From Pelomonas sp. Root1444 (lineage in GTDB: Bacteria; Pseudomonadota; Gammaproteobacteria; Burkholderiales; Burkholderiaceae_C), in NCBI RefSeq assembly GCF_001426885.1, contig NZ_LMFP01000028.1, positions 519,811-583,810 of the forward strand: a stretch of 64,000 bases of DNA, read 5' to 3'. Of the stretch, positions 24,643 through 36,350 are shown piece by piece. Positions within the stretch are counted from its first letter, which is position 1. Each line of letters starts with the position of its first letter. The notes beneath the pieces are model-generated. The model did no database searches. It was not told the origin of the DNA and saw only the letters and a program-made list of their open reading frames with translations. Made by a program: the position numbers and the translations under genes.

Positions 24643-25953
24643 ATGCACGAAGACAGCCTCCTTCCTCCCGACGACGCCTTGCGCCTGGCCTTGCACAACG
24701 AGGTGCATGCGCGGCCGCCGGCGCGCGTGCGGCTGCCTGCCGTCATCGTCTACGTCGCCGTGCTCAACACCGGCATCACCCGCGCCGACGAGCACGCCCA
24801 CCTGCGGCGGCTGCCGGGCCAGCAGGAGCTGGCTGAGGCGGCGCTGAATGCCAATTTCCTGCGCCTGCGCTGCGGCGAGTTCTCGCTGAAGTGGGAGCGC
24901 CACGCCGAGTTCACCCGCTATTCGGTCGTGCAGCCGTTGCCGGCCGACGCCGAGCCCAGCGCGCAGACCCTGGACAACCTGGCGCTGCGCATCGCCGCGG
25001 ACTGGCTGGGCGGCATCCCCGGCCGCACGTTTGCGGCCATCAAGCTCGTCATGCTGGAACGGCCGCTGACCTTCGCCGCCGGCGCGCTGGCCGAAGCACA
25101 GGCCTGGTTCGGTGCGCATGCCACCGTCGCCTCCACCATGGGCGGGCATTCGCTGGTGGTCACCGACTTCTGCTTGCGCGCCACCGGCTTTGAGCACATC
25201 GTCGTGCTGGCCGAGCCGGGCACTCCCGAGACCCGCGCCGGCCGCATCTGCCAGCGCCTGCTTGAACTGGAAACCTACCGGCTGATGGCCCTGCGCGGCC
25301 TGCCGGCAGCCAAGTCGCTCGGCACGACGCTGGCGGACGTGGAAGCGACGCTGGCCGACATCACCGCACGGCTGGAGCAGCGCGGCGCATCGGAGGCGGA
25401 GCTGCTCGATGACCTCATTTCGACGGCCGCGCGCATCGAGCACGCCACGGCCGAACATCAGTACCGCTTTGCCGCGACCCAGGCCTACCAGGCCATCGTC
25501 GAGCAGCGCCTCGAAGAGCTGCACGAAGGCAAGGTGGCCGGCACGCAGACGCTGGGCGAGTTCATGCAGCGCCGGCTCTCGCCCGCGATCGCGACGGTCA
25601 ACGCGACGGCGCAGCGCCTGGCCGGCCTGTCACAGCGCATCTCGCGCGCCAGCGCGCTGCTGCGCACAAGAGTGGATATCGCCACCGAAGCACAGAACCA
25701 GCAACTGCTGGCCCAACTGGGCGAAGGCCAGCGCACCCAGCTGCGCATGCAGGCGACCGTCGAGGGCCTGTCGCTGGCGGCCATCACCTACTACGTCGTC
25801 AGCCTGCTGCTGTACGGCGCCAAGGCGCTGAAGGCCGAGGGCTGGCTGCCGTTCAGCCCGGAACTGGCCGCTGGCGTGGCGATTCCCATCGTGCTGCTGG
25901 TCGTGTGGCAGACGACGCGGCGCATCCACCGCCGGATCTTCAACCACCACTGA
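24643..25953 (+). CDS. DUF3422 membrane-anchored protein
   Basis: The 436-residue protein starts with the DUF3422 signature LHNEVHARPPARV (residues ~17-29). A long alpha-helical domain has predicted coiled coil (~225-340; LADVEATLADITARLEQ, IVEQRLEELHEGKV). Two C-terminal transmembrane helices follow (LAAITYYVVSLLLYGAKAL, AAGVAIPIVLLVVWQTT) and a basic tail. It is likely an inner-membrane protein with a large cytoplasmic N-terminus. The family is widespread in proteobacteria and its function is unknown. It is divergent from the FabH-like gene (91 bp). Confidence 0.87.
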   Translation: MHEDSLLPPDDALRLALHNEVHARPPARVRLPAVIVYVAVLNTGITRADEHAHLRRLPGQQELAEAALNANFLRLRCGEFSLKWERHAEFTRYSVVQPLPADAEPSAQTLDNLALRIAADWLGGIPGRTFAAIKLVMLERPLTFAAGALAEAQAWFGAHATVASTMGGHSLVVTDFCLRATGFEHIVVLAEPGTPETRAGRICQRLLELETYRLMALRGLPAAKSLGTTLADVEATLADITARLEQRGASEAELLDDLISTAARIEHATAEHQYRFAATQAYQAIVEQRLEELHEGKVAGTQTLGEFMQRRLSPAIATVNATAQRLAGLSQRISRASALLRTRVDIATEAQNQQLLAQLGEGQRTQLRMQATVEGLSLAAITYYVVSLLLYGAKALKAEGWLPFSPELAAGVAIPIVLLVVWQTTRRIHRRIFNHH

Positions 25954-25978
25954 CCACGCGGCCGCGTAGAATCAATCA

Positions 25979-26069
25979 CCGGGCCCAAATTTTGTCTTCG
26001 GCCCGGCGCGTTGCGCCTTAACTTCGCAAGCGAAGTTAGCCTGCAACGCGACGGCCTCCCCGGCCGTCG
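25979..26069 (+). promoter_or_regulatory. highly structured 5' leader of guaC (three hairpins)
   Basis: Three strong stems lie back to back. Hairpin 1 is CCGGGCC / GGCCCGG (25979-26006). Hairpin 2 has an outer stem CGCGTTGC / GCAACGCG and inner stem TAACTTCG / CGAAGTTA around CAAG, separated by a symmetric GCCT/GCCT internal loop (26007-26050). Hairpin 3 is CGACGGCC / GGCCGTCG (26049-26069), which shares two bases with hairpin 2, so the two compete slightly. A TAGAAT -10-like box lies at 25967-25972. About 95 nt separate the last hairpin from the guaC ATG. It could be a cis-acting RNA or a REP-like cluster. Confidence 0.5.
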
Positions 26070-26162
26070 AGGGCGCCCTGCCCTCATGCCGAAGCAAGTC
26101 AAGCGCTCGCAGCCCAGGTCGCGCACTGCCTAACGCGCGCCGCAACTGTGAACACCACTGAC

Positions 26163-27140
26163 ATGGAAATCTTCGACTACGACAACATCCTGCTGCTGCC
26201 GCGCAAATGCCGCGTGGAGAGCCGCTCGGACTGCGACACTTCGGTGCAGTTCGGCCCGCACCGCTTCCGCCTGCCGGTGGTGCCCGCCAACATGAAGACC
26301 GTGGTGGACGAGCCCATCACCGAGATGCTGGCCCGCGAGGGCTATTTCTACGTGATGCACCGCTTCGACCTGGACAGCCTGGCCTATGCCCGGTCCATGC
26401 GCGACAAGGGGCTGCTGGTCTCCCTGAGCGTCGGCGTGAAGGCTGCGGACTTCGACCTCGTCGACCGCCTGGCTGCCGAAGGCGTGGGCGCCGACTACCT
26501 GACCATCGACATCGCCCACGGCCATGCCGAAAGCGTGCAGCGCATGATCGGCCACATCAAGCACAAGCTGCCCGAGGCCTTCGTCATCGCTGGCAATGTC
26601 GGCACGCCCGAGGGCGTCATCGACCTGGAGAACTGGGGCGCCGACGCCACGAAGGTTGGCGTCGGCCCGGGCAAGGTCTGCATCACGCGCCTCAAGACGG
26701 GCTTCGGCACCGGCGGTTGGCAGCTGTCGGCGCTGAAGTGGTGCTCACGCGTGGCCACCAAGCCCATCGTGGCCGACGGCGGCATCCGCCATCACGGCGA
26801 CATCGCCAAGAGCGTGCGCTTCGGGGCGGCCATGGTCATGATCGGCTCCCTGTTCGCCGGCCATGAGGAATCGCCTGGCACGACGGTCGAGGTCGACGGC
26901 AGGCGCTACAAGGAGTACTACGGCTCGGCATCGGACTTCAACAAGGGCGAGTACCGCCATGTGGAGGGCAAACGCATCCTGGAGCCTGTCAAGGGCAAGC
27001 TGAGCGACACGCTGCGCGAGATGCAGGAGGACCTGCAGAGTTCGATCTCCTATGCCGGTGGTACGCAGTTGACCGATCTGAAGAAGGTCAACTACGTGAT
27101 CCTGGGTGGCGAGAACGCGGGCGAACATCTGTTCATGTGA
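26163..27140 (+). CDS. guaC: GMP reductase
   Basis: The 325-residue TIM-barrel enzyme of the IMPDH/GMPR family converts GMP to IMP with NADPH, releasing ammonia. It lacks the CBS domains of IMP dehydrogenase. The catalytic loop [11 protein letters not shown] carries Cys173; [35 protein letters not shown] is the phosphate-binding region. It resembles the Bacillus-type GuaC in length and N-terminus (MEIFDYDN). The ATG at 26163 is chosen over a GTG at 26148; neither has a clear Shine-Dalgarno, so translation may depend on the folded leader upstream. Confidence 0.94.
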
Positions 27141-36265: not shown

Positions 36266-36350
36266 GCCCGGGTGGCGAAATCGGTAGACGCAGGGGACTC
36301 AAAATCCCCCGCCGCAAGGTGTGCCGGTTCGAGTCCGGCCCCGGGCACCA
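36266..36350 (+). tRNA. tRNA-Leu (anticodon CAA)
   Basis: This 85-nt gene has an encoded CCA end. The acceptor stem is GCCCGGG / CCCGGGC. The anticodon stem GGGGA / TCCCC closes the loop CTCAAAA, giving anticodon CAA (reads UUG). The long variable arm GCCGCAAGGTGT is typical of class II tRNA-Leu. The T arm is GCCGGTTCGAGTCCGGC. It lies between cysM and the rhomboid gene. Confidence 0.97.

Follow-up and report, generated by a model that had tools for sequence, protein, structure and literature searches.

What is the hairpin-rich DNA ahead of guaC for? In the window analyzed here (the whole stretch of 64,000 nt from Pelomonas sp. Root1444), the intergenic region between a DUF3422 gene and guaC carries three tandem hairpins, which an earlier note had read as either a purine-responsive cis-regulatory RNA or a REP cluster. 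All three are present in the sequence and in the MFE fold of 25954-26162, where hairpin 3 begins after the two bases (26049-26050) common to hairpins 2 and 3. Shuffled versions of this region average -74.65 kcal/mol (sd 4.11), whereas the native sequence folds to -93.6 kcal/mol (z -4.6), a value that none of 200 shuffles reached; DNA parameters gave z -4.1, again with 0 of 200 shuffles reaching the native value. The earlier note had also proposed that the stems are partly exclusive, which is right in spirit; the key exclusive pair, however, is not hairpins 2 and 3 but hairpin 1 (i.e., helix A:B) and a long-range helix that the note had missed, P1. The coordinates of these features are collected in Table 1.

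Table 1. Features of the guaC leader and its flanking genes, in window coordinates
Feature	Position	Strand	Basis or remark
DUF3422 gene, upstream neighbor of guaC	24643-25953		PF11902, E 1.9e-137
TAGAAT, -10-like, of the predicted guaC promoter	25967-25972	+	Fixed 5-nt spacing; family-wide pattern
ACCGGGCCCAAA, strongly conserved, holds arm A	25978-25989	+	Predicted RNA 5' end (putative start site)
Hairpin 1 (helix A:B)	25979-26006	+	CCGGGCC 25979-25985 / GGCCCGG 26000-26006
P1, 5' strand (B side)	25991-26002	+	11 pairs with 26088-26098; leader covariation, window energy
Copy of dispersed REP-like repeat (hairpins 2 and 3, with the repeat's TTTTGTCTTCGGCC end)	25991-26069	+	Genome matches; alignment A3
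Hairpin 2	26007-26050	+	Outer stem CGCGTTGC 26007-26014 / GCAACGCG 26043-26050
Hairpin 2, inner stem	26019-26027 / 26030-26038	+	TAACTTCGC / GCGAAGTTA; GCCT/GCCT internal loop
Hairpin 3	26049-26069	+	CGACGGCC 26049-26056 / GGCCGTCG 26062-26069
Fourth hairpin, GAGGGC/GCCCTC, adjoining	26069-26085	+	Sequence and fold; absent from the earlier note
P1, 3' strand (D1 side)	26088-26098	+	Leader covariation, window energy
Conserved CAAGTCAAGCGCTCGCAGCC (end of D1, and D2)	26095-26114	+	Alignment A1, 44 leaders
Possible helix closing P3	26107-26151	+	TCGCAG 26107-26112 / CTGTGA 26146-26151; 81% of cells paired
Possible pseudoknot	26109-26129	+	GCAG 26109-26112 with loop CTGC 26126-26129; invariant in 43/43 distinct rows
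Hairpin P3, near-invariant loop ACTGC..AAC	26117-26141	+	Covariation
guaC, GMP reductase	26163-27140	+	NF003966, 574.7 bits (cut-off 344); TIGR01306, 525.7 (cut-off 465.65)

The guaC orthologues have ATG 26163 (MEIFDYD) as their common start. The alternative, GTG 26148, is disfavored because, in that reading, the match starts after residue 1 in 75 of the 80 listed orthologue matches; in the closest kin (L004 and L007), where the same in-frame GTG is also found, it may yet be the start. Neither candidate is preceded by a Shine-Dalgarno sequence, an observation of the earlier note that we confirmed by eye.

A protein search for guaC yielded at least 80 loci. TAGAAT-like and ACCGG-like sequences lie within 400 nt upstream of the gene in 58 of the 80 listed loci, and the spacer between them is 5 nt in all 58 (2-9 nt were allowed). 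This 5' module was unmatched in the other 22; L018, among these, carries a variant form. TAGAATN5ACCGGGCCC was found in 139 of 299 family genomes, never with more than one match per row (reversed-pattern control, 0), and the exact start pattern occurs in 79 of 141 sampled genera of the family. Of these sites, 130 were examined, 30 as loci and 100 as fetched sequences, and every one precedes guaC (125 by regex, five by eye); the window's own site is among the other nine, and G075 was examined later, as L225. The nine-base ACCGGGCCC, present by construction in the 130 leaders picked by this pattern, also occurs in 44 of 49 leaders of a set not picked by it. The window's own genome contains TAGAATN5ACCGG once. 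In an order-wide sample, the shorter pattern TAGAATN5ACCGGGC matched in 11 of 300 genomes, with eight matches in the nine genomes of the leader's own family and three in the 291 others. Those three genomes fall below the reversed control (10 matches in nine genomes) and were discounted, and no guaC start was found near two of the three matches (L122 and L123; the third is G346). As far as sampled, the leader appears to be confined to one Burkholderiales family and to occur once per genome.

No -35 motif rose above shuffles in the guaC leaders, and a sigma-70 promoter scan gave no match in the leader of the window or in L022 (a Mitsuaria contig). As no -35 motif stands out, the promoter is predicted solely from the -10-like element and its fixed distance.

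We analyzed 161 unique leaders, mostly selected via the search pattern and with MAG sequences that may contain errors. For A:B pairing, sister-pair contrasts, tree and folding, we used the 155 leaders that remained without L134, L148, L159, L160, L202 and L133 (short coding stretch). Within this set, ACCGGGC is paired at six or more of seven positions in 154 leaders and at all seven in 135; in the predicted RNA, the first 7 nt are all paired in 147 of 161. The B arm differs from GCCCGGT in 55 leaders, and 35 of these differ by a C to T change that keeps a G-U pair with arm A. Because arm A is nearly invariant, the support for A:B consists of retained complementarity and not of two-sided covariation. 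An arm A that hardly varies while B does, in a palindrome at a fixed position relative to TAGAAT, might also be expected of a DNA operator, i.e., of a transcription factor binding ACCGGGC-N-GCCCGGT at the start site with no role for RNA. We regard an operator as improbable: the inter-arm gap varies among 15, 16, 17 and 18 in 156 of the 161 leaders, retention of the G-U pair is what RNA would predict, and the covariation of P1 and P3 described below would be left unexplained.

At least five consecutive T residues follow A:B in 120 of 161 unique leaders, or in 133 of 179 with duplicates counted, and because of this T-run A:B resembles, in most relatives, a terminator located right at the beginning of the transcript. 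The other 41 leaders, the window included, have no T-run after A:B, and a terminator scan (loop limit 8) found none in the window and none in L022. A 5'-terminal hairpin could instead serve mRNA stability alone, with added protection from P1 and P3 and without any switching, which would fit both the fully paired 5' end in 147 leaders and the persistence of A:B where the T-run is absent. We find this rather improbable, as it explains neither the T-run in the 120 leaders nor why B pairs with D1 too.

This second pairing is helix P1, which joins the B region to D1, immediately before CAAGCGCTC. In the first set of 49 leaders, matched P1 strands gave -18.4 kcal/mol versus -15.3 (sd 0.37) for permuted strands, and 0 of 5000 permutations were as low. 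Outside that set, the 66 CCCAAG-type leaders gave -15.14 versus -14.21 (sd 0.21), and the 40 CCCAAA-type leaders gave -17.8 versus -15.7 (sd 0.35), each with 0 of 5000 permutations. Because permutation ignores kinship, we also performed sister-pair contrasts, in which each leader exchanged strands with its closest unpaired relative, as judged from the initial 120 bases of guaC. Among 75 differing pairs, the matched strands were better in 43 and the swapped strands in 13, with 19 ties (sign p 3.7e-5); 13 of the 56 decided contrasts thus ran in the wrong direction. Five leaders without a D anchor (L134, L148, L159, L160 and L202) and two more of neither loop type were excluded from the second-set P1/P2 tests, and L068, in which D is fused to B, was left out of both the P1 permutation tests and the contrasts. 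The middle domain is absent from the L068 leader, where arm B directly joins TCAAGCGCTCG.

Covariation is also found in the 3' domain. Hairpin P3 shows two-sided changes at six of seven pairs, and its permutation test gave 0 of 5000; across 31 sister pairs, the matched strands were better in 23 and the swapped strands in none, with eight ties. P3 together with the invariant GCAG:CTGC pairs reached a covariation score of 0.319 versus 0.100 for shuffles, with 0 of 500 shuffles reaching it. Leaders lacking P3 (L045, L061, L064, L067 and L083) were excluded from alignments A1 and A2, and L029 and L054 were left out of A2 as well. The GCAG:CTGC pseudoknot is without covariation support because its partners are invariant, and the TCGCAG/CTGTGA helix, which excludes the pseudoknot, has no changes on both sides at any of the five pairs counted. 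Of the 161 unique leaders, 77 contain GCAG..CACTGC: 68 of the 81 CCCAAA-type leaders, none of the 66 CCCAAG-type leaders and nine of the 14 others, a distribution that makes P3 a module of one branch. Many CCCAAG-type leaders have CCAAGCGCYC opposite GGAGCTTGG at the start region (helix D2:F), and permutation gave 3 of 5000 in this type; such a start-region helix is weakly supported there, and the other type, CCCAAA, lacks support for it (330 of 5000). In the window, the sequences that face each other at the start region are those of the TCGCAG/CTGTGA helix. We also considered a leader peptide, and rejected it: the window has an ATG-TAA frame at 26086-26133, which is not conserved among relatives because the lengths of their P3 regions differ by single bases.

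A covariance model of the 3' domain, searched against 150 family genomes, gave 27 strong matches (E<1e-10), each in a different genome and all at guaC. Twenty-six coincide with TAGAAT-pattern sites; the 27th (L272) also lies before guaC, with TACAAT replacing TAGAAT. Weaker matches (E 4e-7 upward) include a few guaC leaders (L278 and L279), and the many others are probably due to chance; one that we examined, L280, has no guaC start. Such a domain might be a metabolite-binding riboswitch, in which CAAGCGCTCGCAG, the P3 loop and the possible pseudoknot form a purine-ligand aptamer that gates the start region. The long near-invariant stretches, a covarying hairpin close upstream of the start codon, pseudoknot partners invariant in 43 of 43 rows and a gene product that acts in purine interconversion would all suit an aptamer. 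We nonetheless think it unlikely, because GCAG..CACTGC is missing from every CCCAAG-type leader while A:B and P1 are retained there, the strong matches lie at one gene only, the pseudoknot does not covary, and no Rfam family reaches threshold. Rfam 15 found only a tRNA in the whole window (36266-36347, away from the leader), and at E<=5 the window leader gave only two matches, both far below threshold: mir-338, and c-di-GMP-I on the minus strand. Among 15 other loci, the only Rfam match was a cobalamin riboswitch in L022 (3636-3878), downstream of guaC and away from its leader.

Together, conserved structure and covariation before orthologous genes, the latter by permutation and sister-pair tests that do not simulate the tree, indicate a structured leader. 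The claim of a cis-regulatory RNA is supported by both the conservation before guaC at every site examined and the covarying pairs of P1 and P3 upstream of guaC orthologues. A response to purines is plausible given the gene downstream.

The REP cluster proposed in the earlier note applies to part of the region: hairpins 2 and 3 belong to a dispersed repeat, whereas leaders that lack this repeat can have hairpin 1, P1 and the 3' domain. Hairpins 1-3 are not one functional unit. A search of 150 family genomes with the repeat stretch (25991-26069) gave 23 matches at E<=1e-3, spread over 15 genomes and including the stretch itself; two are in its own genome, and the weakest (e.g., L236 and L237) look like chance. 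Twelve aligned copies (A3) have TTTTGTCTTCGGCCGGCGC..GCGCCTTAACTTCGC..GCGAAGTTAGCCTGCGACGCAAC in common, and the exact core pattern occurs once in the window's own genome and in three of 60 genomes of a relatives sample, own included. The repeat is thus dispersed and palindromic, at a copy number that is not high: no genome among the 150 has more than six matches, the number in G104 (loci L226, L240 and L243-L246). Elsewhere, copies lie near the apparent 3' end of 16S rRNA (L231), before apparent lepA (L233) and before apparent groEL (L238), each at 1501-1560 of its locus and with the gene named by eye. Ahead of a DAHP synthase gene (PF00793) in the window's own genome (L002, 1380-1620) are, by eye, a short reading frame, MSRAAFFSFWFFPRPGGGES, and a T-run-bearing, terminator-like hairpin, together a likely phenylalanine attenuator; the genome's second copy of the repeat lies between this hairpin and the gene. 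An integron attC site was weighed for the GCCT/GCCT loop and dropped.

Could the leader be a mere repeat cluster with no regulatory role? The 22 other matches of the hairpin 2/3 stretch would allow for this, but we consider it very improbable: the element is conserved without the repeat, which only eight of the 155 leaders in the tree carry (the window among them), A:B, P1 and P3 are independent of it, and covariation in mostly repeat-free leader sets largely refutes the idea. Nor is it supported that the repeat entered guaC leaders only once, as its label needs seven changes on the tree, six of them forced by well-supported branches (bootstrap unsettled), and is not clustered (shuffled labels need 7.9 changes on average, with 61 of 500 as low). 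All eight repeat-bearing leaders have GGCCCGG, which gives seven pairs with A and is found in 0 of 10 A3 repeat copies outside guaC leaders; in all eight, CTTCGGC and GCCGAAG pair to form P1. Nine of the 12 P1 columns counted are invariant among the eight, so P1 is retained there and does not covary. The hairpin 2 stems are paired in 84% and 86% of cells over these leaders, and hairpin 3 in 100% (six pairs counted, one with two-sided changes). The repeat sits within the loop closed by P1, and its ends take part in P1 and A:B. Because GGCCCGG is kept for A:B and CTTCGGC/GCCGAAG for P1 in all eight, hairpins 2 and 3 seem to be an insertion that was tolerated in the P1 loop while both competing helices stayed. 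These leaders, in which a regulatory RNA has taken in a repeat and lost neither exclusive helix, amount to a natural experiment on which pairings matter.

A:B and P1 are mutually exclusive because B cannot serve A and D1 together; in the window, bases 26000-26002 are needed by both. The window folds to -90.8 kcal/mol with A:B and to -86.7 kcal/mol with P1. In naive folding of 155 leaders, A:B was lower in 136 and P1 in 19, with 81 within 5 kcal/mol, counts that lean against P1 because some forced P1 folds could not form. From sequence analysis, we hypothesize, with slightly better than even confidence, that the guaC leader is a cis-acting two-state switch that controls GMP reductase by attenuation or at translation. 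The transcript would begin at ACCGGG, and arm A would immediately pair with arm B to form hairpin 1, which together with the T-run of most relatives may serve as an intrinsic terminator very early in transcription. Should A:B fail to hold, B could pair with D1 far downstream to form P1; as D1/D2 adjoins sequence able to pair with the translation start, P1 may change access to the start codon. A:B would thus be the OFF state and P1 the ON state. The window has no T-run, so control there would be exerted via translation or RNA stability. If this switch operates, it would constitute a control element, with defined helices, for the enzyme that returns GMP to IMP across a bacterial family.

What might choose between the two states? 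D1 is made after B, so P1 cannot rescue polymerase at an early terminator as a classical antiterminator does, and A:B must therefore be weakened from the start. Initiating NTP levels are described as influencing start-site choice in PMC5730371, where pyrC work is among the cited sources. GTP-dependent choice of start site is an attractive cause in view of the fixed distance from the -10 element and of the A-C-C-G-G-G order, and the mean energy of hairpin A:B changes from -16.1 to -10.4 kcal/mol when the RNA starts at G and not at A (161 leaders). At low GTP, initiation at the A or C of ACCGGG would give a complete 5' hairpin and an early stop or translation block; at high GTP, initiation at GGG would cost the hairpin its outer pairs, P1 could form and GMP reductase would be made. 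That guaC senses GTP in this way, through RNA polymerase start-site choice and without repressor or aptamer, strikes us as quite unlikely though worth stating; if true, it would be the purine analogue of pyrC-type start-site control and would extend repressor-free nucleotide sensing to purines.

We found no description of a guaC leader motif in the portion of the open literature searched. The main texts of PMC11109978 and PMC8632094 contain no occurrence of "guaC", nor do the accessible portions of PMC7266159 and PMC6429828 contain "GMP reductase". A Burkholderiales-1 motif is named, without an Rfam number, in PMC2864571; it may be identical with the leader or the repeat. Like the purine-related riboswitches of Rfam, the guaC leader lies upstream of a purine gene; unlike them, it has no match at Rfam 15 thresholds. 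Hairpins 2 and 3 resemble REP/REPIN sequences in being a dispersed, imperfectly palindromic repeat and differ from them in having few copies per genome (two in their own). In reiterative-transcription control (pyrBI, carAB, codBA and upp), the initial sequence and the -10 spacing matter, according to PMC6245113. Both features would be relevant to guaC as well, whose only homopolymer at the predicted start, unlike in those systems, is GGG.

The leader shares with terminator/antiterminator attenuators two exclusive helices that use a common strand, one of them followed by a T-run in most relatives. It differs from them in its reversed order, with the terminator-like hairpin transcribed ahead of the competing D1, and in that there is no conserved leader peptide, the GCAG-CACTGC distance being 10, 11, 12, 13 or 16 and not varying in threes. 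In pyrC and pyrD of E. coli and Salmonella, the 5' end governs access to the start region according to pyrimidine supply. The guaC leader is similar in having a hairpin that involves the extreme 5' end of a nucleotide-metabolism mRNA and candidate starts, both pyrimidine and purine, a few nt downstream of the -10 element. It is distinct from pyrC and pyrD in that start-site choice at guaC is predicted, a T-run frequently follows the hairpin, and arm B is contested by a second helix.
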